Assembly (NCBI GenBank): GCA_006739055.1
Contig: AP019702.1
Span: 5,171,388 to 5,235,387 of the forward strand
Reading direction: 5' to 3'
DNA length: 64,000 nucleotides
Source: Allostella vacuolata
Lineage (GTDB): Bacteria > Pseudomonadota > Alphaproteobacteria > ATCC43930 > Allostellaceae
Made by a program: the position numbers and the translations under genes. Below are positions 1,733 through 23,122 of the stretch, one piece after another. A model generated the notes under the pieces. That model worked only from the letters and a program-made list of their open reading frames with translations, searched no databases and had not been told where the DNA came from. How positions within the stretch are numbered: the stretch's first letter is position 1; the number at the start of each line of letters is the position of its first letter.

Positions 1733-2592
1733 TGACCCGGTCCTTCGGCATCGAGCCGCTGCCGGCCCTGCTGGTCGAGCCGATCGTCCGCGCCGCGCTC
1801 CTGGAGGATCTGGGCCGGGCCGGCGACATCACCACCATGGCGGTGATCCCGCCCGACGCCCGCTTCCGGGGCGCGGTCGTCGCCCGCCAGCCGGGCGTGG
1901 TGGCCGGCATCGAGACCGCCGCCATCGCCTTCCGCCTGGTCGATCCGGCGCTCAGGGTGGTGGTGGAGCGGCCGGACGGCACGGCGGTGGCGCCGGGCGA
2001 CGCGGTGCTGCGCATCGAGGGGCCGGCCCGGGCCGCGATCACCGCCGAGCGGGTCGCCCTCAACTTCCTCTGCCACCTGTCCGGCATCGCGACGGCCACC
2101 GCCGGGCTGGTGGCGGCGGCCGGACCGCACCCGGCCCGCGTCACCTGCACCCGCAAGACGACGCCCGGCCTGCGCGCGCTGGAGAAGCATGCGGTCAGGG
2201 CGGGCGGCGGCGTCAGCCACCGCTTCGGCCTCGACGACGGGGTGCTGATCAAGGACAACCACATCGCGGTGGCCGGCAGCGTCGCCGAGGCGGTGCGCCG
2301 GGCGCGCCGCGCCGTCGGCCACATGGTGAAGGTGGAGGTCGAGGTCGACGACCTGGAACAGCTGGCCGAAGCCCTGGCGGAGGGGCCGGACGCGGTGCTG
2401 CTCGACAACATGGGCCCGGACATGCTGCGCCAGGCCGTCGCCCGGATCGCCGGCCGGGCGGTGTCCGAGGCATCGGGCCGCATCACCGCGGCCACCATCG
2501 GCGCCATCGCCGCCACCGGGGTCGACATCATCTCCGCCGGCTGGATCACCCACAGCGCGCCGGCGCTGGACCTCGGGCTGGATGAAGGCTAG
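1732..2592 (+). CDS. nadC: Nicotinate-nucleotide pyrophosphorylase (carboxylating)
   Basis: A 286-residue quinolinate phosphoribosyltransferase that makes nicotinate mononucleotide from quinolinate and PRPP. Family motifs seen are LEDLGRAGDITT near the N-terminus, CTRKTTPGLRALEKHAV in the middle and VDIISAGWITHS near the end. Length and ends are normal, so the gene is intact even though an insertion sequence begins at its stop codon. The TAG stop (2590-2592) is part of the CTAG target duplicated by that element. Confidence 0.96.
   Translation: MTRSFGIEPLPALLVEPIVRAALLEDLGRAGDITTMAVIPPDARFRGAVVARQPGVVAGIETAAIAFRLVDPALRVVVERPDGTAVAPGDAVLRIEGPARAAITAERVALNFLCHLSGIATATAGLVAAAGPHPARVTCTRKTTPGLRALEKHAVRAGGGVSHRFGLDDGVLIKDNHIAVAGSVAEAVRRARRAVGHMVKVEVEVDDLEQLAEALAEGPDAVLLDNMGPDMLRQAVARIAGRAVSEASGRITAATIGAIAATGVDIISAGWITHSAPALDLGLDEG
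2589..2592. repeat. CTAG target-site duplication, left copy
   Basis: This copy provides the TAG stop of nadC on the plus strand (2590-2592). On the minus strand it provides the TAG stop of the second transposase frame (2591-2589). Confidence 0.85.
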
Positions 2593-3388
2593 GTCACCGA
2601 CTCATAATGACGTAGCCAAATTCTGGTGGCTGCGAGCTTGACGAGGGCGAGGTAGTTTTCGGGGTGCTTCTCGAAGCGGGTGGCTACGGCGCGGAAGTGC
2701 TTGAGCTTGCTGAAGAAGCGCTCGACGAGGTTGCGGTAGCGGTAGAGGAAGGGACTGAAGGCGACAGTGGCCTTGCGGTTGCGCTTGGGCTTGACGCAGG
2801 CCCAGGCGCCTCGATCGGCCAGCGCCTGGCGCAGGGCATTGGAATCGTAGGCGCGGTCGGCCAGCAGGATCTGCCCCTCTTTCATTCCGTCCAGCATGTC
2901 GGCCGCACTGCGGCCGTCATGCGCCTGCCCCGGCGTCAGCTTCACGGCGACGGGCCGCCCCTCGGCATCGACCAAGGCATGGATCTTCGTCGTCAGCCCA
3001 CCTCGCGAGCGCCCCATGCATCGGGGGTCAGGAACGTCCCCGCAGGTGGCTTCCGGCCCCCCTTTTTACCGTTCGCACCGTGCTGGTGGACGCGGATCGA
3101 AGAGCTGTCGATCATCTGGAGGTCCCCGTCGTAGGCCGCCGAAACCGCCGCGAAGATGCGATCCCAGACCCCCAGCTTGCGCCACCGGACGAAGCGGTTG
3201 TAGCAGGTCGTCGCCGGCCCGTAGCGCTCCGGGATGTCCGCCCACGGCGAACCCGTCCGCAGCCGCCAGTAGATGCCGTTCAGCACCCGGCGGTCGTCCA
3301 CGCGCGGCACTCCGCGCGGCTTGTTCGGCAACAGCAGCTCAATGATCGACCACTCGAAGTCCGTGATCTCGTACCGGCGAGGCTTCAT
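2589..3388 (-). CDS. IS5-family transposase (two frames, probable programmed -1 frameshift)
   Basis: The first frame (3388-2993) carries the N-terminal domain beginning MKPRRYEITDFEWS. The second (3017-2589) carries the catalytic end, with MGRSRGGLTTKIHALVD, DRAYDS and NLVERFFSKLKHFR; the YxxxNxxER-type region is typical of IS5 DDE enzymes. The coding strand has an A5G6C run (3067-3057) inside the first frame, a plausible slippery site for -1 frameshifting into the second. The second frame ends with Val-Thr followed by a stop codon supplied by the flanking CTAG. The order of motifs matches an IS427-type transposase. Confidence 0.88.
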
Positions 3389-3456
3389 CCATACTCTCCC
3401 TCGCCAGAGGGAATCACGACAGCCCTCAAACCGCTACCCGTTTATGAGTGCGTGAC
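2593..3456. mobile_element. IS5-family (IS427-group-like) insertion sequence
   Basis: An 864-bp element bounded by imperfect terminal inverted repeats. The left end reads GTCACCGACTCATAA, and the right end read inward is GTCACGCACTCATAA. Both sides are flanked by CTAG (2589-2592 and 3457-3460), the expected short target duplication for this group. It encodes a DDE transposase on the minus strand in two overlapping frames. It separates nadC from the convergent nucleotidyltransferase gene without damaging either. Confidence 0.9.
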
Positions 3457-3460
3457 CTAG
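3457..3460. repeat. CTAG target-site duplication, right copy
   Basis: The right copy of the 4-bp duplication supplies the TAG stop (3459-3457) of the minus-strand nucleotidyltransferase gene. Confidence 0.85.
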
Positions 3461-3774
3461 GCCGCGAAGAGCCCCCGTGCCGAACCCAGGATCGCGGCCC
3501 GCCGCACCGGGTTGCGGCTGGCCTCGATCGCGCGCCGGGTCAGCAGGTCCACCTGGCGGCCCGCCAGGCCGGAGAGCTCGTCCTCCATGCGGATGAGATC
3601 CCAGAGGCTCCATTCGGCGTCGGGGCGAAAGGTCACCAGGACGTCCAGGTCGCTGTCCGGTCCGAAATCGGCGCGCAGGACGGAGCCGAAGACCGCCAGT
3701 TCCGTGACCGCCCAGCGCCGGCAGAAGGCGGCCAGCGCATCCTTCGGCAACAGGCTTGCCGCGACATCCGTCAT
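3457..3774 (-). CDS. MNT-type nucleotidyltransferase domain protein (MntA-like)
   Basis: This 105-residue protein has the minimal nucleotidyltransferase signature FGSVLRADFGPDSDLDVLV (GS followed by DxD). Such proteins are normally antitoxins that AMPylate a HEPN toxin encoded next door. No HEPN gene is visible here: the downstream side is the insertion sequence and nadC, and the upstream side is the mlrC operon. It therefore looks like an orphan. AGGA about 10 bp upstream supports the chosen ATG. Confidence 0.75.
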   Translation of the reverse strand: MTDVAASLLPKDALAAFCRRWAVTELAVFGSVLRADFGPDSDLDVLVTFRPDAEWSLWDLIRMEDELSGLAGRQVDLLTRRAIEASRNPVRRAAILGSARGLFAA

Positions 3775-9535: not shown

Positions 9536-9652
9536 GCGCGCCATGCTCCGCAATCCGGCGAGCCAGCCCTGTCATCGCCCATCTCCCGCAAGGCGGGGGT
9601 TCGTTGTAGCGTTGCCGGCCGGCCCGCCCGCCACCAGTCGAAAGCCCCGCCG

Positions 9653-11245
9653 ATGCTGCAGACCGCCTATGCCCAGCGCGGCATGATCACCGCCCCGCAC
9701 CACCTGGCCGCGCAGGCCGGGCTCGCCGTCCTGCGCGACGGCGGCAACGCGGTGGAGGCGATGGTGGCCGCGGCCGCCGCGATTGCCGTCGTCTACCCGC
9801 ACATGAACGCGGTCGGCGGCGACGGCTTCTGGCTGGTGTCCGCCCCCGGCGCCGAGCCGGTGGCGATCCAGGCCTGCGGCGCCGCCGCGGCCGCGGCCAC
9901 GCCCGACCTCTACCGCCGGGCCGGGCGCGGGGCGATCCCGCCGCGCGGCCCCCTGGCGGCCCTGACCGTTCCCGGCACCGTCTCGGGCTGGGCGGCCGCG
10001 CTCGACCTGGCCGCGGCCTGGGGCGGCCGGCCGCTGCCGCTGGAACGGCTGCTCGAGGAGGCGGTCCACCACGCCTCGGCAGGCGTGCCGGTCACCGCCA
10101 GCCAGGCCTTCTACACCGCCCAGAAGGCGGCCGAGATCGGCGACGCGCCCGGCTTCCGGGCCGCCTTCCTGCCCGATGGCCGGCCGCCCGCGCCGGGGCA
10201 GGTGCTGGCCAACCCGGCCCTGGCCGGGACGCTGCGGCGGCTGGCGCGGGACGGGCTCGACGGCTTCTATCGCGGCCCGCTGGCGCGCGCCGTCGCGGCC
10301 GACCTGGCCCGGGCCGGCTCGCCGCTGACGGGGGACGACCTCGACCGGCACCGGGCCCTGACCCTGGCGCCGCTGTCGGCCCGGATCGGCGCCGGCCGGG
10401 TCTTCAACCTGCCGCCGCCGACCCAGGGCCTGGCGTCGCTGATGATCCTCGGCATCTGGGATCGCCTGGGCGCGCCCGCGGCCGAGGGCTTTGCCCATCT
10501 GCACGGGCTGGTGGAGGCGACCAAGCGCGCCTTCCGGATACGCGACGCCCATCTGGGCGACCCCGCGGCCATGGCCCGGCCGGCGGAAGGGTTCCTGGCG
10601 GATGCCCTGCTGGCGGGCGAGGCCGCCGCCATCGACCCGGCCCGGGCCGCACCCTGGCCGCCGCGCGCGCCCTCCAAGGGCGACACCATCTGGATGGGCG
10701 CGGTCGACGGCGCCGGCCGGGCGGTCAGCTTCATCCAGAGCATCTATTGGGAGTTCGGGTCCGGCATCGTGCTGCGCGACACCGGCCTGCTGATGCAGAA
10801 CCGCGGCGCCAGCTTCCTGCTGGAGCCGGGGCAGCTGCGCACGCTGGCCCCGGGCCGGCTGCCCTTCCATACCCTGAACCCGGCCCTGGCGCGGCTCGAC
10901 GACGGGCGGACGGTCACCTACGGCACCATGGGCGGCGAGGGCCAGCCGCAGACCCAGGCCGCGATCCTGACCCGGCTGCTGTCCGGCCAGGCGCCGCAGC
11001 AGGCGGTGACCGCCCCGCGCTGGCTGCTCGGCCGCACCTGGGGGGCGGAGGCGACGAACCTGAAGATCGAGGACCGCATCGACCCCGGCCTGATGGCCGA
11101 CCTGGCCGCCGCCGGCCACGACATCGAGCGGGTGCCGCCCTTCAGCGACCTGATGGGCCATGCCGGGATGATCGTGCGCGGCCCCGACGGCGTGCTGGCC
11201 GGCGCGGCCGACCCCCGCGCCGACGGCCTCGTCGCCGCCTTCTGA
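9653..11245 (+). CDS. Gamma-glutamyltransferase family protein
   Basis: A 530-residue Ntn-hydrolase of the gamma-glutamyltranspeptidase family. The autoprocessing and nucleophile threonine is expected at Thr345 in SKGDT. Upstream are the family blocks VGGDGFW and VPGTVSGW; downstream are RGASF and YGTMGGEGQPQ. There is no obvious signal peptide, so it may be a cytoplasmic acylase-like or hydantoinase-associated member rather than a classical periplasmic GGT. It ends 84 bp before the tRNA-Arg gene. Confidence 0.88.
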   Translation: MLQTAYAQRGMITAPHHLAAQAGLAVLRDGGNAVEAMVAAAAAIAVVYPHMNAVGGDGFWLVSAPGAEPVAIQACGAAAAAATPDLYRRAGRGAIPPRGPLAALTVPGTVSGWAAALDLAAAWGGRPLPLERLLEEAVHHASAGVPVTASQAFYTAQKAAEIGDAPGFRAAFLPDGRPPAPGQVLANPALAGTLRRLARDGLDGFYRGPLARAVAADLARAGSPLTGDDLDRHRALTLAPLSARIGAGRVFNLPPPTQGLASLMILGIWDRLGAPAAEGFAHLHGLVEATKRAFRIRDAHLGDPAAMARPAEGFLADALLAGEAAAIDPARAAPWPPRAPSKGDTIWMGAVDGAGRAVSFIQSIYWEFGSGIVLRDTGLLMQNRGASFLLEPGQLRTLAPGRLPFHTLNPALARLDDGRTVTYGTMGGEGQPQTQAAILTRLLSGQAPQQAVTAPRWLLGRTWGAEATNLKIEDRIDPGLMADLAAAGHDIERVPPFSDLMGHAGMIVRGPDGVLAGAADPRADGLVAAF

Positions 11246-11329
11246 AAAGTCGAATTCCGCGCTTGCCAGCCGGGCCCGCTTTGCGTAGTGTCCCGGCCTC
11301 CCGCGGCGAGTATCGCCCCGGCCAGTGCT

Positions 11330-11406
11330 GCGCCCGTAGCTCAACTGGATAGAGCACCAGACTACGAATCTGGGGGTTAGGAGTTCGAATCTCTTCGGGC
11401 GCGCCA
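11330..11406 (+). tRNA. tRNA-Arg (anticodon ACG)
   Basis: A complete 77-nt gene with CCA encoded at 11404-11406. The acceptor stem pairs GCGCCCG (11330-11336) with CGGGCGC (11396-11402). The D-arm is GCTCAACTGGATAGAGC, the anticodon ACG is at 11364-11366, and the T-loop has TTCGAAT. It is the integration target of the element that begins at its 3' end. Confidence 0.97.
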
Positions 11407-11408
11407 TT
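11398..11408. repeat. Candidate attL core (GGCGCGCCATT)
   Basis: This covers the last acceptor-stem bases, CCA and two further bases of the tRNA-Arg gene. The identical 11-mer recurs at 23112-23122, so either recombination product keeps an intact tRNA. Confidence 0.65.
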
Positions 11409-12913
11409 TCTGTTCCACCACCTAAAGCACCGGCTAACATATTGAACGGCAAGCTCATATTTGCCGTTCTAAATCCTTCGTTGCGCAGGTAGCGCAAGCG
11501 ATCGACGAACGTCAGTTTCAGGACCGTCCGGCGATCCTCCAGCCGTCCCGAGCGCCAGAGATTCCAAGGGTTCGCGAGGAACTCCAAGGCTGTTCTAAGT
11601 GCATCGTCGAAGTAGCTGACCGGACGCCCGGCACCGGCCAGCTGTTCCTGGATAACGAGCTTGTCCTCCTCCAGCTTGCGGATGCGATCCTCATAGGCCG
11701 CGATCACGCTGGGCACGCTGGCATCGAGGATGCGCTCCAGCAGTTGCGAGACCTGCCGCTCGATCTTCGCCAGTTCCGCCTTGAGCGTCTTCGCGCGGGT
11801 TTCGCCCTGCGCCGAGCGGCGATCCCACAATTCCCGGAACATGCCCGTCGCGACCTTGAACAGCGTCTCGGTCGGCTGGACGCTGGCGAGCAACGCCTCG
11901 AACTCGCCCTCGATCGTGTCCCGGCGGATCGACTTGCCGTAGCTGGGGCAGCCGCGCTTGGGGCAGAGATAATAGGGATGCCGCGCGTTGGCGCCCTTCG
12001 ACCAGCAGGCCGTCAGGGGCGCGCCGCACTCGGCGCACACGACGAACCCGCGCAGCGGGAAGTCCTCGTTAAGGTTCTTGCGCATCGGCGCGCGATTGAT
12101 GCCGTCGAGCCGGTCCTGGACGCGCTGGAAGGTCTGGTAGCTGACCAGCGGCTCATGCTGTCCCAGGCGGCGCGGGACGCCCCAATCGGGCGCCTCCACA
12201 TATCCCGCATAGACGCACTGCCGCAGCAGCAGCGAGACGCGGTAGTTGCGGACGATGCCGCTGCCATCCCGCGGGAACAGCGGGTTGTCATTCAAGAAGC
12301 GCGTGACGTCAGCCTGGGTCTCGAAATGCCCGGAGGCATAGCCTTCCAACGCTTCCTGAACGATCGAGGCCGCCGGCTCGTCACGCTTCAGCATCTTCCC
12401 GCGGCCGGAGACGCGGACATACTTGTATCCGACCGGCGCCTGGAACACCCAGTAGCCGTTCTGGATGCGCGAGCGCATGCGGTTGCGAGTCTGCTCCCCG
12501 TTCTTCTGGCGCTGATGCTGCGAGACGCTGGCCAGCAGGTTCTCGACCAGGATCGAGTCCGGATCCTCGCCGAACTCGATGGAGGGGGATTCCAGATTGC
12601 CCCCGGCACTGGCGATCATCCCGCGCAGTTCCAGATGGGCCTGGAGGCCACGCGCCAGACGCGAGACGTCGTCGATGATGACGACGGTGCCCTTGGTGCG
12701 GCGCTTGCGGATGAAGGCGAGCATCGCCTTCATGCCGGGCCGCTCGGTCAGGCTGCCCGAAACGTCGTCCTGGAACACGCCGGCAACCTCGTAGCGCTTC
12801 ATCCGTGCGAACTCGCGGCAGCGTGTCTCCTGCGACTTGAGGCCATCCCCTGCGACCGTTTGCTTGATGCTCGACACGCGGCAATAGATCACTGCCTGCT
12901 TGTGCTCCGTCAT
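11407..12913 (-). CDS. Large serine recombinase (element integrase)
   Basis: The resolvase domain starts with IYCRVSS, with the expected nucleophile at Ser14, and contains GTVVIIDDVSRLARG. A recombinase domain (VGYKYVRVSGRGK) follows, then a zinc-ribbon-like CAECGAPL, YLCPKRGCPSYG, and a long coiled coil (about residues 370-430). The frame has no stop before the tRNA: it continues antisense through tRNA-Arg and ggt down to 9572. The element-encoded part ends at about 11407. The start overlaps the upstream small gene by 4 bp (ATGA). It should catalyse integration and excision at tRNA-Arg. Confidence 0.9.
11444..11469. repeat. 9-bp inverted repeat near the left end of the element
   Basis: GAACGGCAA (11444-11452) and TTGCCGTTC (11461-11469) are a perfect inverted repeat separated by 8 bp. 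It lies about 40 bp inside the left end of the element and within the recombinase coding sequence. It could be an arm-type recombinase-binding site, or a structure at the mRNA end. Confidence 0.45.
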
Positions 12914-13230
12914 GGCGTTTCCCGACCCTCCCCGTCCGACTGCGTCTCCGCGGCAGTTGTTGTGGCAATGGCCGATTCTACCGCACCCGGCTCGTTGGCG
13001 GCCTCGTCGCCGAACACTTGTCCACAGACATCGACGGTGAAGCCGAACTCGACGAAGCTGCGCATGATCGACCAGAGGGTCTCCAGCAACTCGCGCTGCT
13101 GGTCCGGCGTCAGGTCGAAGCCGGCCAGGTCGCCGCGGTAGCGCTCGACGTCCAGCTCCAGGGCCGGCGGCACGGCCGCCCCGGCATCGGAGAACTCCCG
13201 GTCGAGACCGGTCAGAGTATTGTTGTTCAT
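12910..13230 (-). CDS. Small conserved protein encoded upstream of the serine recombinase
   Basis: A 106-residue acidic protein with a central block ERYRGDLAGFDL...LLETLWSIMRSFVEFGF. It is translated just before the recombinase with an ATGA overlap. AAGGAG lies about 8 bp before its ATG. Proteins of this kind recur beside large serine recombinases in alphaproteobacteria (from memory). A recombination directionality or accessory role is a guess from position. Confidence 0.75.
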   Translation of the reverse strand: MNNNTLTGLDREFSDAGAAVPPALELDVERYRGDLAGFDLTPDQQRELLETLWSIMRSFVEFGFTVDVCGQVFGDEAANEPGAVESAIATTTAAETQSDGEGRETP

Positions 13231-13271: not shown

Positions 13272-13300
13272 ATCATACAGAACAAACGTAGAACACGCAA
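13272..13300 (-). promoter_or_regulatory. Promoter of the recombinase operon
   Basis: On the minus strand, TTGCGT (13300-13295) and TATGAT (13277-13272) are separated by exactly 17 bp. The -35 is weak and the -10 matches at five of six positions. The promoter lies about 40 bp upstream of the start at 13230. The whole spacer is occupied by a LexA-type box. Confidence 0.7.
13280..13294. promoter_or_regulatory. LexA (SOS) box, GAAC-N7-GAAC
   Basis: GAAC at 13280-13283 and GAAC at 13291-13294 are separated by 7 bp. Read on the minus strand this is GTTC-N7-GTTC, the direct-repeat operator established for alphaproteobacterial LexA. It sits between the -35 and -10 of the recombinase promoter, an ideal repressor position. 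Confidence 0.75.
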
Positions 13301-13332
13301 GGAAAACTTTCCTATTGTCGATAATATTGCTC

Positions 13333-13704
13333 CTATTCATTGTGTTCTCCCTCCATCGCACGAACGAGTTCTTGATCCTGGCGTCCGGACTCCATCCGCG
13401 CCTGGCGCAGGGCGCGGTAGATGGCCCGGACCTTCCAGCTCGACGCGACGATGAGCGCGCCGCGGTGGCCGACGGCATCGACATGGAGGATCGCCGTGCC
13501 CAGGCCGATGAGCAGGCCGGCACCGGCGATGCCCCAGAGGACGAGGAGCTCGCCGGGGAAGAGCAGGTCGCCGTAGACCAGCGTCGTCAGCGTGGCGAGC
13601 ACCGTCATGCCGAGGGCGAGCCACAACGGATCACGGCGGATGCGGGCGGTGACGTTGGCGATCGGGTAACCCCGCAGCAGACCGGCCGGGATGGCCTCGG
13701 ACAC
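13333..13704 (-). CDS. Two-transmembrane hypothetical protein (DUF6232-like)
   Basis: A 123-residue protein with two hydrophobic segments, LWLALGMTVLATLTTLVYG and LLVLWGIAGAGLLIGLG. A C-terminal part (GALIVASSWKVRAIYRALRQAR) resembles the DUF6232 type. The start is uncertain: the GTG at 13704 is used because farther upstream the frame has no protein-like composition, although it stays open to an ATG at 13878. It lies between the recombinase operon and the CBASS genes, on the recombinase strand. Function unknown. Confidence 0.5.
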   Translation of the reverse strand: MSEAIPAGLLRGYPIANVTARIRRDPLWLALGMTVLATLTTLVYGDLLFPGELLVLWGIAGAGLLIGLGTAILHVDAVGHRGALIVASSWKVRAIYRALRQARMESGRQDQELVRAMEGEHNE

Positions 13705-13863: not shown

Positions 13864-14493
13864 ATGGCCCTTGAGCACGAGTACGCCCTTTTGGGAGGGT
13901 TTAACCGCTCACACGTCGGTCGGGGTCTGGCGGGCCTTGCCGCGGCTCTTTCAGCGGGGGTCGTATTCCTAGTTCTATCCGCCGTTGATCTAGCAACTAC
14001 TCTCGGCTTGAACGTTAATCTGCCGCCGACCTTCCTGTCACTAGCAGGAGCAGGAGCGGTTTATGGATTCTTATACTGGGTGTTTGATCAGCACGCGTGG
14101 AAGATTGCGGCCGTCGGCGATCTACTGAAAGTTCCGAACCTCTCCGGCGATTGGGTTTGTGTAGGCACGCCGCTTGAACCGCCGCACGGTCCGCCCTGGA
14201 ATGGACGCGTGACGATCATCCAGTCGTGGGATCGCATCCGAGTGCATTTGAGTACCGGCCAGTCTCAGTCCAACAGCATCGCGGCGGCGCTACTCCACGA
14301 TCGGGCGATCGGCTACCGCCTAATGTACCACTATAGAAATGAGCCGCGGCCAGGCGAACGCGATCTTGCGCCACATCATGGCTTCGCGGAGCTCACGTTT
14401 GCGCGCGATCAGCGAAGTGCCACAGGGGACTATTTCAACGGTCGCGGTCGAAACACATTTGGCACCATGACGTTGACGCGGGAGGTTCGCTGA
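13864..14493 (+). CDS. Cap15-type CBASS effector (two TM helices plus beta-barrel domain)
   Basis: A 209-residue protein. Two N-terminal membrane segments (about residues 18-42 and 50-72) are followed by a beta-rich domain beginning LSGDWVCVGTP, with WNGRVTIIQSWDRIRVHL and SQSNSIAAALL. This layout and motif set match the S-2TMbeta/Cap15 effectors. These sense a cyclic nucleotide made by the partner CD-NTase and oligomerise in the inner membrane to disrupt it during phage infection. The stop and the next start overlap (TGATGG), so effector and synthase are coupled. Codon use is clearly less GC-rich than in the chromosome around it. Confidence 0.82.
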   Translation: MALEHEYALLGGFNRSHVGRGLAGLAAALSAGVVFLVLSAVDLATTLGLNVNLPPTFLSLAGAGAVYGFLYWVFDQHAWKIAAVGDLLKVPNLSGDWVCVGTPLEPPHGPPWNGRVTIIQSWDRIRVHLSTGQSQSNSIAAALLHDRAIGYRLMYHYRNEPRPGERDLAPHHGFAELTFARDQRSATGDYFNGRGRNTFGTMTLTREVR

Positions 14494-15632
14494 TGGCCCG
14501 TACCATCGATGATCGCCTAGAGAATCTGCGTGTACGCCGAAGCGGCACAGATGCTGAAAGCTTTCGGCGCGTCAATGAGGCAGCCCAAATCGATCTGCTT
14601 ATGAAGAGCGCCACTCAAGAGGCGTGGCAGAAGCGAGCCCGCTCGCAGCCGTATACACGCTACGCGCTTGGCGCGATGCAGGCGGTCGGCGTCGACTACA
14701 CGCGGATCGGAATTGAAACGGCAGAACGGATCGGCAAACAGCTCGTCTCGGGTCTCTCTGTCGGAGTTGAGTTCCGGCTGCAGGGTTCTGTCCCGCTCGA
14801 CGTGCACATCCGCGGGGTTAGCGATGTTGATCTGCTGGCTCTCCTTGCCGACTTTCATACTTATGCGACCAATGGTGTGCGGAGCCGTGCCGGGCTGTAT
14901 AGGTCTCCGGCAACGGTGACGTCGCTCGATGCATTACGTGGCCTACGTGCAGAGGCGGAGAGTGTTCTGAAAGCTGCATACCCCGCCGCCACGGTAGATT
15001 GCACCGGCGGTAAGTGCATTGAGCTTTCGGGCGGATCGCTAGCCCGACCCGTCGACGTTGTGCCATCGCACTGGCTGGATACGGTGGAGTATCAGAGTTC
15101 GTACCTTGAGCATGATCGTGGTGTGACTATTCTTAATAAGAAGGTTCCTGAAACGATCGACAATCTTCCGTTCCTCCACATCAGCAGGGTCCACGAGCGC
15201 GACGCCTATTTACTCGGCGGACTCAAGAAAGCTATCAGGCTTACAAAAAACGTGAAGAACGACGCCGAGAACGTCGCATCGGCGATGCAGTTGCCGAGTT
15301 TTGATATAGCGGCTTTGATGTATCACGCGAACCAGGATGCATTACGTTCAGGTTCGATCTACGAGCTTGCAATCCTGCGGGAAACCCAGAGGTTCCTCGA
15401 TTGGTGCTACCGCAATCCGGAGGCGGCTAGGCAACTGCGAACACCCGATGGATCGCGGATCATTCTTGATTCCGAGGCGAAAGCCGCTGGGTTGTTAACT
15501 ATCTCTAACGAGATGGATGCGCTCGCTATGGAAGTTGCAAAGGAGCAGGTGAGCGCCTTGAGGACAGTCAATCCGCTCTGGTCGCAGATAGATGAAGCGC
15601 TGAGAAATTCCTATGTTCCCCCAGCTGCCTGA
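14493..15632 (+). CDS. CD-NTase (cGAS/DncV-like nucleotidyltransferase), CBASS synthase
   Basis: A 379-residue protein with the CD-NTase active-site pattern: QGSV (Gly98, Ser99), SDVDLL (Asp111, Asp113) and a third acidic residue at Asp188 in RPVDVV. It should make a cyclic di- or trinucleotide upon phage infection and activate the Cap15-type effector encoded just upstream. No Cap2/Cap3 ubiquitin-like or HORMA/TRIP13 genes follow, so this is a minimal (type I) CBASS. The clade (CdnB or CdnE, the usual Cap15 partners) was not determined. Confidence 0.85.
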   Translation: MARTIDDRLENLRVRRSGTDAESFRRVNEAAQIDLLMKSATQEAWQKRARSQPYTRYALGAMQAVGVDYTRIGIETAERIGKQLVSGLSVGVEFRLQGSVPLDVHIRGVSDVDLLALLADFHTYATNGVRSRAGLYRSPATVTSLDALRGLRAEAESVLKAAYPAATVDCTGGKCIELSGGSLARPVDVVPSHWLDTVEYQSSYLEHDRGVTILNKKVPETIDNLPFLHISRVHERDAYLLGGLKKAIRLTKNVKNDAENVASAMQLPSFDIAALMYHANQDALRSGSIYELAILRETQRFLDWCYRNPEAARQLRTPDGSRIILDSEAKAAGLLTISNEMDALAMEVAKEQVSALRTVNPLWSQIDEALRNSYVPPAA

Positions 15633-15690: not shown

Positions 15691-16917
15691 ATGAAGCGAT
15701 CAGTATTCTACTCGTGGCAATCGGATTTGCCTTCGAAAGGTAACAGAAATTTTATTGAGGCAGCGCTAAACAAGGCGCTTGGTGCGATATCTCGTGATAA
15801 AGATGTCAATATCGAGCCGGTGTTGGATCGGGATACCGCCGACACGTCGGGCGCCGCAGACATAGCTGGAAGTATATTTGCCAAGATTGCGGCCGCCGAC
15901 GTATTCGTAGCGGACGTGAGCCTTATTGGGACAGCGGGAAGTAGAGATACGCCCAACCCGAATGTGCTTGTCGAGTTAGGGTACGCAGTTGCTGAGCTCG
16001 GCTGGGAGAATATTATACTGGTGTTGAATGGAGAGTTTGGCGGACCCGAGCGTCTTCCATTTGATCTTCGGGGCCGCTTAACTGTGGTGTATCGACTCAA
16101 TGAAAGCACGGACCGCAGCAACGAGCGAGGTATCCTGCAAGGACGGCTCGAAGCGGCCTTGAGAGCGGCCTTGCTTGCGTCCCCCAACAATCTTCCGACA
16201 GGTCGAGATGCCAATCTCTGGTGGGGCGAGTGGCATCGCGACGCGGCGGGGAGCGGAACGCTATCTATCTTCGATGTGGGCACTAATGGGTTTACGTTTA
16301 ATCTTGATGTTTATCACGGATCGCATCAAGGATCGATCACGGGGTTCGCACGACTAGTCTCGCGAGATCTTGCATACATACAAGTCGCGAATGGCGATGG
16401 AGAGCGAGCCGGAGAGATCGCGTTCCGCCGCAGTATGGTCGGCGGACTGCGGCATATCGATGTCGACGAGATATCTCCGTGCGATTACTGGAGAGGGGCC
16501 CGAGCATATTTCTCGGGGTGCTTTCGGCGCGGGCCGGAGCCGTGGTTTGACGCCGGCCTTATGAACGAGATTGAGTTGGCGCGCTTTTATCGCACTGTAG
16601 GAGAGCACATTGTCAAGTTTCGTCAGTTCACGAGTGATATCGGGGAGAAGGACAATGTTGACGAAGACAAACAGGCGCGGGTGATTTGGGGAGCGGTTCC
16701 CGGTTTATATACGATATCAGAAACCATCGTCGTGCTCAGCGCGGAAGGCGGTGTATGGGCCGCCTATATTGATGAAGAAAAGGTACGATATTTTACAAAC
16801 ATCCCTTCAGATCGAGGCGCGTGTCCGAAGACGATTGACGACTGGCGGGCGGAATTCGCCAGTCTGGAGGTTGTATATACGGAACCGGATGCCGTAGTCC
16901 GCCATCGGGAAACGTAA
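15691..16917 (+). CDS. TIR-like/Rossmann nucleotide-binding protein with beta-rich C-terminal domain
   Basis: A 408-residue protein starting 58 bp after the CD-NTase on the same strand. Residues 1-165 form a TIR-like or nucleoside-deoxyribosyltransferase-like domain: FYSWQSD at the start, ADVFVADVS, and NPNVLVELGYAVAELG with Glu95 in the position of the catalytic glutamate of NAD-cleaving or glycosidic-bond-cleaving relatives. Residues 175-290 (LWWGEWHRD, GFTFNLDVYHG, YWRGARAYFSG) look like a beta-barrel sensor or binding domain I cannot name. It may be a second effector of the CBASS, a linked independent defence protein, or an accessory nuclease-like factor. Confidence 0.7.
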   Translation: MKRSVFYSWQSDLPSKGNRNFIEAALNKALGAISRDKDVNIEPVLDRDTADTSGAADIAGSIFAKIAAADVFVADVSLIGTAGSRDTPNPNVLVELGYAVAELGWENIILVLNGEFGGPERLPFDLRGRLTVVYRLNESTDRSNERGILQGRLEAALRAALLASPNNLPTGRDANLWWGEWHRDAAGSGTLSIFDVGTNGFTFNLDVYHGSHQGSITGFARLVSRDLAYIQVANGDGERAGEIAFRRSMVGGLRHIDVDEISPCDYWRGARAYFSGCFRRGPEPWFDAGLMNEIELARFYRTVGEHIVKFRQFTSDIGEKDNVDEDKQARVIWGAVPGLYTISETIVVLSAEGGVWAAYIDEEKVRYFTNIPSDRGACPKTIDDWRAEFASLEVVYTEPDAVVRHRET

Positions 16918-17656
16918 GAATGGATTGTGGTGGGTTCGCTATGCGTTGCCCGTTCGAATCAAGAGAGGGTGGAAGCTCTTGTGGGCGTCGCCAGAGGCTA
17001 GCTTAGCCGGGCCGTCTGGCTCTTGATTGAGAATATCCCCCCGACCATGTTGGTTCGGGCTGGTAGTAGATAGGGCTGGGTAGACGCTACGCGCAAGATG
17101 TGCGCTGTAATACAGCGCATCTTGCCAAGGGAGGCCCGCTGCGCGCCTCCCGTTGGATCCCTCCCGGCCGTTGGCGCTCCGCCGGCATCGAGCCGGCTCC
17201 GCACCAATGCACCGGTCTGGTCCGCTGCACCACCAATCAGGGGCGCCTTCGTGCTCCCCCGATACCCCCATGACGCAGGGAGACTTCGCTCTCCCTGGAC
17301 CCATCGAGCAGGAGGAGATGTTGCTCTTCTCCCATCGACAAGCCGCTGAGCGGCAGCCAACGACCGTTCTTGGTAACGGTCTTGTTGCTATCGGTTCATT
17401 TTCAGAATCAGTAGCCACGGGATGTACGCCATGATACGTGGGCTACCCGCGGCGCCGCGGACGCTCGCAACTCACAGATCCTGGCGCATCTCGATCACCG
17501 TCTCTGCGATGAGTACCTCACCGGCGGGGCAACCGAACGTCTGCAGTTCACTTGGGGGTCCAGCGTCGGATTGGGCTCACTACATTGCCGCCCCTGGCGG
17601 CCATCCGGCTTCTGCATTTGGGGCAGGGGTCGGTGAGAAATGGGCTGAGGGCGCTC
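16918..17656. other. 740-bp gap rich in hairpins; possible structured RNA or decayed genes
   Basis: No convincing gene is seen. Hairpin-capable repeats follow one another: 17093-17125 (GCAAGATG/CATCTTGC with inner GCGCTGT/ACAGCGC), 17129-17151 (GGGAGGC/GCCTCCC), 17181-17197 (GCCGGC twice), 17276-17297 (CAGGGAGA/TCTCCCTG), 17362-17381 (GACCGTT/AACGGTC) and 17411-17446 (GTAGCC-ACG/CGT-GGCTAC). CCCATCGA recurs at 17300 and 17331. A plus-strand stretch near 17450-17630 has protein-like composition without a start and could be a gene remnant. It lies between the convergent TIR-like and IetAS genes, so part of it may be terminators. Confidence 0.45.
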
Positions 17657-20131
17657 CTAAACTCGTACCGGCACCCCCAACAGGACGTCAACAGCCGCGC
17701 TAACTGGAGTATAAAGGTCTACGTCGATATTGTGGGCCTTCAACGAAACAATAAGTGAATAACGTCGTGTCGCATTACAGACCTCCCGCGCAGCACGACT
17801 ACGACACCAACCTACGACGGGCTTAATACAGAGCGTATCCCGACCAGCCAGTTCGATGGCGGGGCCCGTCCAGACATCACAATGAAGCGAACCGGAAGCA
17901 ACACTCTGTGGACCAAGGAGCCATCGAGTGTCGTCAGCTTCGCCTTGAGGGCCGACGCGTGGGTTATCTCGCTCTGATGCATTCACCCGCTGTTTGAAGA
18001 CATTTAGGTCTTCATTCTTGCGGCGCAGGTCAAATCGCAGCCCGTGCGACTGATATCGCTGAGGATCGACGCTGGCGGACAAGCCAGGGTTTGGGTCGAT
18101 GAAGTACGAGAGTGTGACCTTGAGTTCGACGATCTCGTTTTCTAAATCTTCCAACATACGCCGCGGCATCGGCAGCGTGTAGTAGTGGCAATCTCCAAAC
18201 TTTCGACCTCCATCCATTCGAAACGGCTGTATTTCTGACTGCGCAAAAAGAGCCAAATGGTTGCTTGCGGACGCCGTGGCGCGCTCAAAGTCCGGGACCC
18301 CGTAGCCGAAGCGTCGTATAAGTTCGTAGCGCTCGCGCTTCGACGGTCTGGCTCCAAGTTTGGCGAGCATTGGGCCTGTCCACTCCGCACTGTGAATCAT
18401 GAGTGCGCGAATCGTTTCTGCCCAATAGTCTGGGTGATCTGCCCGGAGCCTGGCGGCTAGGCGAGCCGCCTGCGCTGCCGCAGCGCTAGTGGCCTCAAAA
18501 GGCACGAGTGGCGCACCTGCGTCTCTTCCGGTCGATAGCAGTGAGAGAGAAGCCATTGTGAGAGCTTCAGTCCGGGTCGGATTGATCGCACGGTTACCGG
18601 CTTCCATTACGATTTCGGGCTTGAACGGGGCGTTCTGTCGCCAAGAGGCGCTTGTGCGACTATGGGGACTAACATCGCCAGTATCCGCCATTGCAGACCA
18701 ATTCTCATAGCCTTGCTCTTGAATCGTGTTGTGATCCGTATAGCCTCCGACTGTGAGAGCGTTCCAAGCTTGAGCAGGGTCCTCAATGGGGTACTCGTCC
18801 TGCGGCCGAATTCGAGCCATCTCGATGTGCGGAGGAACATTTCCGCCCGATACAACGATCAGTCGCTTTGGTGCGCCGGCCTCATCTCCAATCATGGAAC
18901 CGTTTGCGGCCTGATCGATAGCAGCGCTCCATGCCGATGGTGTCGCACCCGAGACATCCTCATTCGTGACCGCCATGCAATAAACGCGAGCACGGTCCGG
19001 CGCGGCGATCTCAGGCAGTGCAATTGCGGCCTGTGTGACGATGCCGTAGCTATGTGGCTGCGTCGGATCGAACCCTTGTGGCGGCAGAAACGTCACTGAC
19101 TCTAGCCGGTGAGTCAGGCGCCTATCAGATCTGTCAACAAGGGCGGCAGTTAGATCGCCATGCAGCGCCAACCCCGCCATAGCGGTTCCGTGACCGCCAT
19201 CGTCGTGATCATCGCTACCCCAAGCGCGATCAAGCGCATGCATATCGTTGGCAGCAAGCGCCGGCTCAATGAGTGAATGGCCTCGATTGACCCCTGTATC
19301 TAGAAGACAGACCGCAGGCGCATCGTTAGGTGGCCATCGAGTGCGCTCAGCTAGATCCTCGACCCACGGGCGCTGTTCCCCTCGAACCTCATCTGTGAAG
19401 AAGTATGGGGAGTCACTAGCACGCCGCAGTTCCGCGATCGCCCCAGTCGCGAAGAGCATAAGTTCGATTGTGGCTCGCGATGCAAATACAGGAACGACAA
19501 CTATCTCGGGAAAATATAGGCGACGATCGCGTCCCGCCGCCGGTACTCTGAGACGGCTACATACGTCGTCAATCGTGGCCTCGCTGCCGGCCCAACACCA
19601 TAGCGCCCACCACATCTGGTGCTGCGGATCGTCCGGAAGTGCGCGCGGGTCGTCGGTCCAGAATGTTTCGAGCTTTGCCGCGCGGAATGCCTCAATTGCT
19701 TCGACTTTTGCCTGGTGAGGTGGATTACGACCTTTCTCGGTTAATGGCCCGTTCAGGTAGTCATCAAGGATCTGCTGGAATACCGCGCGTGAGGCGTCCG
19801 GAATAAAGAGTGCGATGGTCCGGTCGTTCCGATCGTCGGCTTTTGCCGCACCACTCCGGATGCCCTGCGTCTTCTGATCGAGCGCGTCTGGCTTCGTGCC
19901 GGCTCTTAGGTCTACCTCAATAAATGCTCCGGTTGGCGGGTCCAAACGGTCATCAATAGGCCGGTATTGATCTGCAAGCGCCAGCGCCGCAGCGAGTTCG
20001 TTCTGAACGCGCCGCCCGTGCTCCTGCCTTCCGCGCGGATTGCCGCCCGAACCACCGGACGCGCCCAGATAAGCGTGGGACGTCGAAAGGCGCGCAATGT
20101 CAATGTGCGGGAGAACAAAGCGCGATGCCAT
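17657..20131 (-). CDS. ietS: S8 subtilisin-like protease of an IetAS-type defence pair
   Basis: An 824-residue protein with a subtilase catalytic domain in the middle. Putative triad: Asp278 (CLLDTGV), His314 (DGGHGTAMAG) and Ser549 (EATSAAAAQ), with the oxyanion Asn431 in VSGGN. No signal peptide is seen, so it probably acts in the cytoplasm. The gene starts 3 bp after the stop of an AAA ATPase gene. This ATPase plus subtilase pair matches IetA/IetS, described first as a plasmid exclusion module and later as an anti-phage system. N-terminal (1-250) and C-terminal (600-824) regions are not recognised. Confidence 0.8.
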   Translation of the reverse strand: MASRFVLPHIDIARLSTSHAYLGASGGSGGNPRGRQEHGRRVQNELAAALALADQYRPIDDRLDPPTGAFIEVDLRAGTKPDALDQKTQGIRSGAAKADDRNDRTIALFIPDASRAVFQQILDDYLNGPLTEKGRNPPHQAKVEAIEAFRAAKLETFWTDDPRALPDDPQHQMWWALWCWAGSEATIDDVCSRLRVPAAGRDRRLYFPEIVVVPVFASRATIELMLFATGAIAELRRASDSPYFFTDEVRGEQRPWVEDLAERTRWPPNDAPAVCLLDTGVNRGHSLIEPALAANDMHALDRAWGSDDHDDGGHGTAMAGLALHGDLTAALVDRSDRRLTHRLESVTFLPPQGFDPTQPHSYGIVTQAAIALPEIAAPDRARVYCMAVTNEDVSGATPSAWSAAIDQAANGSMIGDEAGAPKRLIVVSGGNVPPHIEMARIRPQDEYPIEDPAQAWNALTVGGYTDHNTIQEQGYENWSAMADTGDVSPHSRTSASWRQNAPFKPEIVMEAGNRAINPTRTEALTMASLSLLSTGRDAGAPLVPFEATSAAAAQAARLAARLRADHPDYWAETIRALMIHSAEWTGPMLAKLGARPSKRERYELIRRFGYGVPDFERATASASNHLALFAQSEIQPFRMDGGRKFGDCHYYTLPMPRRMLEDLENEIVELKVTLSYFIDPNPGLSASVDPQRYQSHGLRFDLRRKNEDLNVFKQRVNASERDNPRVGPQGEADDTRWLLGPQSVASGSLHCDVWTGPAIELAGRDTLCIKPVVGWCRSRAAREVCNATRRYSLIVSLKAHNIDVDLYTPVSAAVDVLLGVPVRV

Positions 20132-20134
20132 ACA

Positions 20135-21136
20135 TTAGGTGCTTTCAACATCGAGGAACGCCGTTCGCATCGAATGTCGCTCGCGCAGGCGATCGACAAT
20201 CTCCTCAGTGGTTAGACGGGCTTTCTCGTCAAGAATTGCAGTTTTTACTGCATCGTCAACCGCGCGAACAACCTCAGCCTGACTTAAACCTTCCGCTACG
20301 GCAAAGATCTTTCCCCAAGCTAGGCGGGGAGCCGATAGAGGATTTATATTGGATGTAATCAGTTTTTGAACTTGTGTCGACGTAGGTGTATCAAACTCAA
20401 GAACTTGATCGTAGCGCCGAAGTAGCGCCCGATCTAGTAATGATGGATGATTAGTCGAGCAGATAATTATGCTATCAGTAGAATTTCCTTCCTCCATAAA
20501 TTGGAGAAAGGAATTCAACACTCGACGCATCTCGGCCACATCGTTCGTGGCTTGTCTCTGTCCGCCTACAGCATCAAATTCGTCAAATAGATAAACGCCT
20601 CGGCGCTTCGCTGTTTCGTCGAATATCGCGCGTAGCTTTGCTGCCGTGTCGCCCATATAGCGGGTGATTAAACCTTCAAGCCGAATAACATATAAGGGTA
20701 GGTTAAGCTCGCCCGCTATAGCTTCGGCTGTCATGGTTTTCCCAGAACCGGGCGGGCCAACGAACAAGATGCGCCGGGTGGGAACTTTGCCGTGCTCGCG
20801 TAACCAATCGCGCTTGCGCTGTTGGCGCAGAATATCACTAAAGCGACTCAGCAGCCGGTCACCTAGCACCACATCCTTGAGCTTGAAGCGCGGTTGGCGC
20901 ATTTCAAGGAGCCCCTCGACGCTTCCTCGGGGGTGCGCAAATGGAATAGGTATAGAGGCACCGCGAGAACCCTGAGCCCGCGCTTTGTCCACTACTGCAC
21001 GCAATTCTTCGGCAGCTCGCTTGTGGCCTTGACGGGCTTCAGACGCAGCAATCTGCAATGCGATGGAGAAGAATGCTTCATCATCTCCTTCGGCGCGACT
21101 TTTAAGCATTGCCAATATTTGTTTCGTGTTCGACAC
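20135..21136 (-). CDS. ietA: AAA+ ATPase of an IetAS-type defence pair
   Basis: A 333-residue AAA ATPase: Walker A GPPGSGKT (127-134), Walker B YLFDEFDAV (182-190), sensor-1 STNHPSLLD and an arginine-finger region ALLRRYDQ. The GTG at 21136 is chosen because AGGAAGGG precedes it by 6 bp; the longer frame to 21202 has no protein-like content. It probably restrains or activates the protease encoded 3 bp downstream. Low GC relative to the flanking chromosome supports horizontal acquisition. Confidence 0.82.
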   Translation of the reverse strand: MSNTKQILAMLKSRAEGDDEAFFSIALQIAASEARQGHKRAAEELRAVVDKARAQGSRGASIPIPFAHPRGSVEGLLEMRQPRFKLKDVVLGDRLLSRFSDILRQQRKRDWLREHGKVPTRRILFVGPPGSGKTMTAEAIAGELNLPLYVIRLEGLITRYMGDTAAKLRAIFDETAKRRGVYLFDEFDAVGGQRQATNDVAEMRRVLNSFLQFMEEGNSTDSIIICSTNHPSLLDRALLRRYDQVLEFDTPTSTQVQKLITSNINPLSAPRLAWGKIFAVAEGLSQAEVVRAVDDAVKTAILDEKARLTTEEIVDRLRERHSMRTAFLDVEST

Positions 21137-21291
21137 GGTGACCCTTCCTATCTTGAATCTTACACTATGACCCTCCCCCGGACACGCATTTTTTCCGCCC
21201 ACGTCCGTGGTAAGGGGGTACTGACTGACGAGCGCGTGCCATCGGAGTCATTTTGCATTGGCAAGAGGGCTTTCCTCGACACGCCGCGGGT

Positions 21292-22580
21292 CTACGGTTC
21301 AGGAAAGAACGGGCCGCGCCGACGCCGTATGCGGACTTGCTCCGGCTGGCTAGGCGCCGTGGGTTCGGTCGCCCTCAGAGCCAGGTAGGTGCCGATCTCC
21401 CGATTGAGACGCCCGGTTTCGACGATATGGATGCGCCGGACCTGGCGGACTTCGTGCTGTAGCCGGCGGCGCTCAGCGAGCTGATGCTCAATCAGCGCCT
21501 GCTTCTCTGCCCGGTCTCGCAGCCGGCCGAGGGCTACTTCTTCTTCATTCTCAGCATGAACCCGGGCATTGCGGCCGGTAAGCCAGTCCCATAATGCGGG
21601 CAGCCCTTTGCGAAGGCGTTTGGTTCGCCCGCGGCCTTCGAGCGCCCAACGTGTTGCCTGGATCGCCCGCAGCTCGCGTCTGGCAGCACGGTGGCGTTGG
21701 ACCAGCTGGCGACGTTTGGCTTCCATCGCAGCTTTCGCTCGGCGAACTCAGCATCGGCAGCCGCGATATGCGATCGCAGCTTCTTCGTCATGCGCGACGC
21801 CAGGTCCGCCTTGGTCTGCTGCACCGTCGGCAGAGCCTGCGGATCACCGAGCCGGGCGGCGATATCCTTCCGCTTGATGCCGAGCCAGCGGGAGAGGGAA
21901 TAGACCTCGCCGCGATGGTCCACCGCCACGAAGCCGCGCCGGTTGCCTTGAGCGAGATAATGTCCATGCGCCGCCAGCGCATTCGCGAACGCGGCACGCG
22001 AATCCGAGGCCGACCAGCATTCCTGGAACATCGCCTTTACGGCTTGGGTATCGACCTTGGCGCGGCGCGCCTGCTGCCATTCCTGCCGGGTGAAGTTGAG
22101 CGGGTCGCGATTGCGGCTATCGGCCAAGCCCGCCGGCATCCGCCAGCCATGCTCCAGGTAGAGCTGCCGGGACAAGTCGTGCAGCTTCCGCTTGAAGTGC
22201 GGCAGGTGGACCGCGCGCATGGTCTGCGCATCGATTCGGGACCAGACGCAGTGGGCATGGCGGCGGCCTTCCTTCTCGTGGAAGACGATCGCCCGCGGCT
22301 GGCCCTTCAGCCCGAGCCGCTCCTCGATCGTGTCGATGGCGGCTTCGAATGCCTCGACCGGCACATTCTCCGTCTCAGGCGGGTTGAGGCTGAGGGAGAA
22401 GAGGAACTGGCGGCACTTCGTCCCGCGGCTGACGGCGTAGGCTTCGTGGAAGGCGCCGTTCAGGTCGTCGGCGACGAAACCGCGCAGTTCGTGGACTTCG
22501 ACATGGTCGTTCTCGTCCACGCGAAGCAGGTGGACGGCAAGTTGCTTGCCGCCCGCGCGCTGGCTGGCCTTGAGGATCAT
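21292..22580 (-). pseudogene. MobA/VirD2-type relaxase, frameshifted
   Basis: The N-terminal part (22580 to about 21736) has the relaxase blocks FLFSLSLNPPE and HEKEGRRHAHCVWSRID with the HxH metal motif, then SRQLYLEHGW. At about 21731-21735 the frame changes: the expected continuation (MEAKRRQLVQRHRAARREL, then GLPALWDWLTGR and ending GPFFPEP) lies in another frame down to 21292. One missing base in the AAAG run would explain it. The start overlaps the mobC stop by 4 bp. The break removes only the coiled-coil-rich C-terminal third, so partial activity or a sequencing error remain possible. Confidence 0.78.
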
Positions 22581-23017
22581 GGGCCGGTGGCCTCCCGGAG
22601 ACCCAGCGCGCGCATCAGGGCATCGCGCATCTGCCGCACGTGCGCGCAGGCGTCGACCAGCTCCTTCTCGGTATCGGGGGTGACGGGCAGGGCGCCGATG
22701 TTCGCCGCCTTGGCCAGCTGGTTCAGGTTGCTGGCGAGCCGCGACTGGCCCAGTTCGGCCAAGAGCCCGGCGATTGCCACCAGATCGCGGACGACGACAC
22801 GGCTGCGCGTCGGACGGCGCTGCTGGCTCTCGCCCAGCAGGCGCTGCCGGACGTAGGCGCCGATCGGCACGCTGCCCGCAGCCGCTTCCAGGTGGCGGCG
22901 CTCGTCTTCAGTCAGGCGGATGCTGAAGGGACGGGTCTTCTTGCGTCCGTTCCGTGCCTCGTGCTTGTTATGGGACGGTGGCTTGGCGTTGCGGTTGAAG
23001 CCGTCGGTCAGGGGCAT
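22577..23017 (-). CDS. mobC: MobC-like relaxosome protein
   Basis: A 146-residue protein with a ribbon-helix-helix-like start (RPFSIRLTEDERRHLEAAA) and the MobC hallmark LGQSRLASNLNQLAKAAN. Such proteins bind the origin of transfer and assist the relaxase, encoded immediately downstream with an ATGA overlap. The start lies about 95 bp inside the right end of the element, so an origin of transfer is expected in 23018-23111. Confidence 0.85.
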   Translation of the reverse strand: MPLTDGFNRNAKPPSHNKHEARNGRKKTRPFSIRLTEDERRHLEAAAGSVPIGAYVRQRLLGESQQRRPTRSRVVVRDLVAIAGLLAELGQSRLASNLNQLAKAANIGALPVTPDTEKELVDACAHVRQMRDALMRALGLREATGP

Positions 23018-23121
23018 GGCGGCACCAGGAAATCCGAGGATTTCCGGCGCTCAAGGTAGGTGTTCCAGTCGCCAAGAACCTCGAATAGTTCGTTCGAGGT
23101 AGCGCCATCCAGGCGCGCCAT
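23008..23121 (-). CDS. Short frame at the right end: predicted alternative C-terminus of the recombinase in the circular form
   Basis: The minus-strand frame starting at ATG 23121-23119 encodes 37 residues (core ELFEVLGDWNTYLERRK) and stops at 23010-23008, overlapping the mobC start. Joining the two 11-bp cores in silico puts this frame exactly in register with the recombinase: the shared codons Met-Ala-Arg lie inside the core. In the circular element the recombinase would therefore end with this segment instead of reading into the tRNA. It may also be a small gene of its own. Confidence 0.45.
   Translation of the reverse strand: MARLDGATSNELFEVLGDWNTYLERRKSSDFLVPPCP
23028..23100. other. Two perfect inverted repeats near mobC: oriT or recombinase-arm candidate
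   Basis: GGAAATCC/GGATTTCC (23028-23045, 2-bp loop) and ACCTCGAA/TTCGAGGT (23078-23100, 7-bp loop) are both 8-bp perfect repeats. They lie between the mobC start and the right end of the element, where an origin of transfer and integrase arm sites are expected. No nic consensus was identified. Confidence 0.4.
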
Positions 23122-23122
23122 T
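23112..23122. repeat. Candidate attR core (GGCGCGCCATT)
   Basis: An exact 11-bp copy of the tRNA-Arg 3'-end sequence at 11398-11408. Beyond it the sequence should be the original chromosome downstream of the tRNA. Confidence 0.6.

Follow-up and report, generated by a model that had tools for sequence, protein, structure and literature searches.

A LexA-type box in the recombinase promoter of a defence-carrying integrative element, and a recombinase gene predicted to be completed by excision

The window analysed here (the whole stretch of 64,000 nucleotides, 64 kb, from the genome of Allostella vacuolata) harbors an element of approximately 11.7 kb inserted in a tRNA-Arg gene. Its ends, backbone genes and cargo are distributed as follows:

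11330-11406, plus strand: tRNA-Arg(acg), the target gene (most relatives likewise lie at a tRNA-Arg)
11398-11408, plus strand: attL core GGCGCGCCATT, the 3' end of the tRNA, common to attR
11407-12913, minus strand: element-encoded part of a large serine recombinase (Resolvase, Recombinase and zinc-ribbon domains)
12910-13230, minus strand: 106-aa conserved helical protein encoded by the first gene of the operon (both recombinase clades described below have homologues ahead of the recombinase)
13333-13674, minus strand: 3' remnant of a gene upstream of the promoter (homology to the host's own paralogous element and to the G001 element stops at 13668)
13864-14493, plus strand: Cap15-type two-TM CBASS effector, cargo (PF18153 4.2e-34; PADLOC 1.1e-78)
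14493-15632, plus strand: CBASS oligonucleotide cyclase, cargo (PADLOC 2.3e-147)
15691-16917, plus strand: possible TIR-domain protein, cargo (weak match, below the Pfam cut-off)
17657-20131, minus strand: IetS subtilase, cargo (PF00082 5.4e-50; PADLOC 9.7e-37)
20135-21202, minus strand: IetA AAA ATPase, cargo (PF00004 1e-30; PADLOC 1.8e-67)
21534-22580, minus strand: MOBP/VirD2-like relaxase (PF03432 3e-14; TraI_MobP_relax 2.1e-8, below the model cut-off)
22577-23017, minus strand: MobC/NikA-like relaxosome protein (PF21983 7.5e-9, weak PF05713)
23112-23122, plus strand: attR core GGCGCGCCATT, right end of the element, where homology between elements ends

The right end was located by comparing the mobC-side ends of the host's own paralogue, of a third copy and of a congener element, and both in the paralogue and in the G001 element the homology between elements was found to stop where the 3' end of the tRNA is repeated. 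Three congeners were inspected for an unoccupied tRNA-Arg site, but their similarity to the window breaks off directly behind the tRNA (at 11410-11411), and paralogous elements were used to define the ends instead. The possession of a recombinase, a relaxase and defined ends with short direct repeats points to an integrative mobilizable element (IME), and no mating-pair genes were detected among the ORFs scanned (part of those between 11.4 and 23.1 kb). A previous, sequence-only reading of this DNA had regarded the island as a defence element capable of excision and transfer; the cargo indeed consists of defence genes (CBASS and IetA/IetS), and the co-occurrence of relaxase and MobC makes transfer plausible. 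The gene remnant at 13333-13674 has had its 5' end replaced by the cargo junction.

Most relatives combine the same backbone with other defence genes, as CBASS and ietAS give way to IetA (L036), Lamassu/ABC-3C (L037), restriction-modification (L042), Gabija (G001) or, on weaker evidence, an SMC/AAA ATPase resembling those of defence systems (L038), while the scanned stretch of L054 held only IS21 genes. Relaxase homologues were recovered in all genomes of the clade whose recombinase promoters carry a LexA box (hereafter the box clade), on the same strand as the recombinase and ~7 to 36 kb away from it wherever both lie on one mapped contig; in L036 and L037 the relaxase probably lies on another contig.

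The host genome contains further members of the family: a second element of ~35 kb at a tRNA-Val (G000:C1:2986322-3022500; L031, L138), whose recombinase is truncated and which also encodes a VirD4-like coupling protein and a relaxase sharing 91% identity with that of the window, and a third relaxase/MobC remnant devoid of any recombinase (G000:C1:465211-466177; L139), whose right end comprises the recombinase tail and a tRNA-like core. Moreover, a cargo stretch of 231 bp (window 17079-17309), possibly a transposon remnant, is 98% identical to a region near the second element (G000, ~3001.7-3001.9 kb), and 877 bp outside the element (window 2587-3463) are 99.9% identical to G000 at ~2966.1-2967.0 kb (probably an insertion sequence or a recent duplication). 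Elsewhere in the genome (G000:C1:2461000-2462000; L022), repeats of GGTTCATCCCCGCGCGGGCGGGGAACAC resemble a CRISPR array.

The recombinase was assigned to the large serine type on account of its three domains in one chain (the Recombinase domain scoring just under the cut-off), and an integron (tyrosine IntI, attI, cassettes) was set aside on the same account. In the integrated state its reading frame does not stop at the element boundary: it continues through the antisense strand of the tRNA-Arg (RPKRFELLTPRFVVWCSIQLSYGR) to position 9572, giving 1113 codons, and the integrated frames of the relatives stop at various distances within or after the tRNA. A gene caller would thus annotate a 1113-aa protein, the last 600 residues of which would be spurious. 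The same frame (9572-12913, minus strand) is also open through the whole of an antisense gamma-glutamyltranspeptidase gene. The 106-aa protein encoded ahead of the recombinase had no family match, and its structure model (helical, low confidence, mean pLDDT 60) was too poor for a structure search; by its position only, we consider it a candidate recombination directionality factor.

The region upstream of these two genes contains the following sites:

13272-13277, minus strand: -10 hexamer TATGAT (TAnnnT in 7 of 8 aligned promoters)
13280-13294, minus strand: LexA box GTTC-TACGTTT-GTTC, an exact match to the motif
13295-13300, minus strand: -35 hexamer TTGCGT, 17 bp from the -10 (TTGnnT in 7 of 8 aligned promoters)
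13300-13313, either strand: 14-bp palindrome AGGAAA-N2-TTTCCT, directly next to the -35 (all 8 box-clade promoters keep GGA-N5-TTCCTT unchanged)

Read directly along the minus strand, the order is TTGCGT (13300-13295), GTTCTACGTTTGTTC (13294-13280), TG and TATGAT (13277-13272), with the whole box inside the 17-bp spacer (13278-13294). This upholds the placement made in the sequence-only reading (GAAC-N7-GAAC at 13280-13294, wholly within the spacer between -35 and -10), as does the gene order (106-aa ORF at 13230-12910, then the serine recombinase from 12913) its assignment of the promoter to the small gene and the recombinase. A generic sigma-70 scan does not report this promoter (the -35 is weak, matching at 3 of 6 positions), and we call it a promoter because the hexamer-box-hexamer geometry is kept in all eight relatives. 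The exact GAAC-N7-GAAC occurs once in the 64-kb window; shuffled windows contain on average 1.14 copies of GTTC-N7-GTTC per 64 kb, which places the motif alone at chance level, so that the weight of the argument is carried by its position and conservation, together with the host context.

To appraise conservation, relatives of the recombinase were taken from other genomes, from the same genome and from one congener, and the eight promoters that carry the box are those of the window, five genome relatives, the host's own paralogue and the congener copy. All eight have the box at one and the same place in the promoter, ~390 bp ahead of the recombinase gene, and in each it exactly fills the spacer of a -10 placed 17 bp from the -35. 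Its eight defining bases are invariant, while the pairwise identity among the eight promoters averages 59% within the N7, 56% on the upstream side and 41% on the downstream side. Even in the host's own paralogue, where the recombinase is cut after ~255 residues and the hexamers have decayed (TTTCGT, CATGAT), the box persists. A fortuitous GTTC-N7-GTTC in an AT-rich promoter, of which about one exact match per 64-kb window is to be expected, would not recur in the same place in all eight promoters, which drift everywhere else and are spread across several bacterial families, and we rejected this explanation as having a negligible probability.

In the recombinase tree, the eight box recombinases form one clade (100/100 support; it also includes one viral contig whose upstream region is missing) apart from 15 sister recombinases. 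None of the 15 sister promoters contains the box, and the promoter itself differs, while the small gene is homologous. A different LexA specificity in the sister hosts was rejected as the cause of this absence, as six sister-clade lexA genes carry GTTC-N7-GTTC; since the sister-clade hosts (where checked) share the lexA motif, the change, a gain or a loss of the box, took place on the element. Most sister-clade elements (L039-L061) encode a VirD4/TraG coupling protein (~460-660 aa) ~1.1-2.8 kb upstream of the recombinase and have a different conserved promoter, free of a LexA box. Searches for further members of the family gained none: the pattern TTCCTTG-N2-T-GTTC-N7-GTTC matched 44 times in viral contigs, never beside a related recombinase, small gene, relaxase or tail; in a 385-genome sample of the class the family promoter pattern matched only the window itself; and plasmids contained only distant recombinases (<60% identity).

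The host context was examined in the single-contig genome (5.83 Mb), which has one lexA gene. GTTC-N7-GTTC lies upstream of both lexA (GTTCTAGTTTGGTTC) and recA (GTTCGTTGTTCGTTC) of the host, in agreement with the motif published for Caulobacter LexA (PMC12700426), and it precedes lexA in all 12 other hosts examined (six per recombinase clade). Host LexA would thus recognise GTTC-N7-GTTC, as the sequence-only reading had stated for Alphaproteobacteria in general, and by its operator the recombinase promoter appears to fit the alphaproteobacterial LexA (SOS) regulon. There are 89 exact matches genome-wide, most of them presumably non-functional; on a scoring matrix built solely from the lexA-upstream boxes of other hosts, the box of the window ranks 4th among the 89, and the host's own lexA box 10th. 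On these grounds we regard the box as very probably an operator of the host LexA. The GTTC repeats might conversely serve another regulator, for instance an element-encoded one, and be merely LexA-like: the palindrome beside the -35 is a second conserved site (not found in the sister clade) that would imply a further regulator, so that other regulators may act at this promoter. Nevertheless, motif, spacing and N7 preference all agree with the lexA-upstream boxes of the hosts, and the neighbourhood of the promoter revealed no regulator gene shared by the box-clade elements, which makes this alternative highly improbable.

At the opposite end of the island, adjoining attR, we found the missing 3' end of the recombinase gene:

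23008-23112, minus strand: detached recombinase coding tail (LDGATSNELFEVLGDWNTYLERRKSSDFLVPPCP to the stop), which continues the recombinase frame only once the element is circular

In-silico joining of the element ends at the shared core yields a 539-aa recombinase ending in LDGATSNELFEVLGDWNTYLERRKSSDFLVPPCP, in which the tail contributes the peptide LDGATSNELFEVLGDWNTYLER. All box-clade elements have these last 34 codons in front of mobC at their far end, and in the window the stop of the tail overlaps the mobC start by 10 nt. Substitutions in the tail fall mainly at third codon positions (228, vs 104 and 88 at the other two), with dN of 0.04-0.27 and dS of 0.5-2.4 (0.13 and 1.28 for the pair formed by the window and L038); dN is well below dS, and the tail is under purifying selection. 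In L057 the far end shows the tail followed by mobC and then by the relaxase, and in L055 a 5'-truncated recombinase, the tail and mobC are contiguous, which is the arrangement predicted for the circle.

Taken together, these observations suggest that in the excised circle the LexA promoter, the small gene, the full recombinase, mobC and the relaxase form one operon. The transfer genes are joined to the upstream promoter in silico only after the ends are joined, and the corresponding transcript is a prediction. The sequence-only reading missed that integration splits the recombinase gene and that excision would leave mobC and the relaxase behind the LexA promoter; its proposal that DNA damage leads to excision and transfer is strengthened by this geometry, and it stays, like the operon, a deduction from the sequence. 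As an alternative, the tail could be a short leader ORF with its own start at the tRNA core (which supplies an in-frame ATG, GTG or TTG) and with translation coupled to mobC, while mobC and the relaxase would be transcribed from chromosomal or internal promoters; the third-position bias is compatible with this, as it merely shows that the frame of the tail is coding. We consider such a leader peptide unlikely, given that recombinase and tail form one uninterrupted frame ahead of mobC in L055, that the frame of the recombinase continues over the core into the tail without a shift, and that a promoter scan (a weak kind of evidence) detected nothing promoter-like on the minus strand between attR and mobC.

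Integration-dependent genes with attP in the coding sequence are known from archaeal SSV-type integrases and mycobacteriophage repressors, in which integration severs the 3' end of the gene. The present case differs in that the gene encodes a large serine recombinase, the replacement tail is read from an antisense tRNA, and the mob operon is attached through the same junction.

Returning to the LexA operator, we propose that LexA bound between -35 and -10 would block RNA polymerase, so that expression of the small protein and of the serine recombinase would be low as long as the DNA is undamaged, and the island would stay in tRNA-Arg. Upon DNA damage, RecA-triggered cleavage of LexA would free the promoter, and the recombinase, possibly guided by the small protein, would release the island from the 3' end of the tRNA as a circle. 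Because the last 34 recombinase codons overlap the mobC start, closure of this circle would both complete the recombinase gene and join mobC and the relaxase to the LexA promoter. Transfer functions would consequently be transcribed only from the circle, with the conjugation machinery provided by a helper. As a whole (repression, damage-induced excision, circle operon and transfer via a helper), we hold this LexA switch to be the probable explanation. Several points speak against it: the integrated 1113-codon frame, which runs into antisense host sequence, might harm the recombinase; the box has 89 matches in the genome; and the second palindrome would bring in another regulator.

The LexA box could also serve establishment instead of departure, if SOS elicited by the entry of single-stranded DNA (or promoters that are free in the recipient) allowed the recombinase with its native tail to be made at once from the circle and to insert the element. 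In favor of this, only the circle encodes the recombinase in full length; conjugation is known to trigger SOS and to switch on integron integrases in recipients (PMC2958807); and entry of IncC plasmids induces SOS with an effect on SGI1 (PMC9927553). On the other hand, the box is kept in the integrated copy too, where it would act as well. We view a role in establishment as a possible, though less probable, account of the box; the two roles are compatible.

LexA control of mobile-element genes has precedents. In integrons, a LexA site in the intI promoter is established (in some it partially overlaps the -10), and a survey that tried 14 other LexA motifs found none of them in integrons (PMC3108266). 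Common to both is a mobile gene platform whose site-specific recombinase has a LexA site in its promoter; integrons differ by a tyrosine recombinase and the E. coli-type motif only, whereas here we encounter a serine recombinase, GTTC-N7-GTTC and the predicted excision of a whole element. In SGI1, likewise an integrative mobilizable element under host LexA, the repressor acts on the promoter PsgaDC of the master activator, and SOS alone, without the helper plasmid, gives no detectable excision (PMC9927553). LexA is predicted to act directly on the recombinase promoter here, unlike in SGI1; given the SGI1 result, SOS may be necessary and not sufficient for excision here. Tn916, according to Celli and Trieu-Cuot (1998) as cited in PMC6540685, transcribes its transfer genes only once its ends are joined in the circle, and the geometry described above predicts the same placement of transfer genes behind a promoter after circularisation; Tn916, however, uses a tyrosine recombinase, is tetracycline-responsive and has no LexA box, and here the junction completes the recombinase gene itself. 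A review of IMEs, the text of which does not mention SOS or LexA, places serine IMEs chiefly in Firmicutes and usually within genes (PMC5704250). With those (e.g. Tn4451) the elements studied here share the single serine recombinase, the relaxase and the very short direct repeats at the ends, and they differ in being alphaproteobacterial and in targeting tRNA 3' ends. Our literature search, partial in coverage and weak as evidence of novelty, returned neither a LexA box in a serine-recombinase IME promoter nor a serine recombinase gene completed by excision.

In a broader perspective, these elements may typify a family of alphaproteobacterial, defence-carrying IMEs with a split recombinase, in which attP lies inside the 3' end of the recombinase gene, the integrated copy bears an antisense-tRNA tail, and the circle encodes the native protein together with mobC and the relaxase on the LexA promoter. 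DNA damage would then control leaving, transfer and re-entry, and the recombinase C-terminus would report the integration state; we give this generalisation an even chance. The predicted arrangement would couple the movement of anti-phage defence genes in Alphaproteobacteria directly to the way the host responds to DNA damage, through a single repressor site. Furthermore, if transcription proceeds as predicted, the detached tail and its overlap with mobC would show how a small mobilizable element can make excision a condition of its transfer with no regulator devoted to the task.
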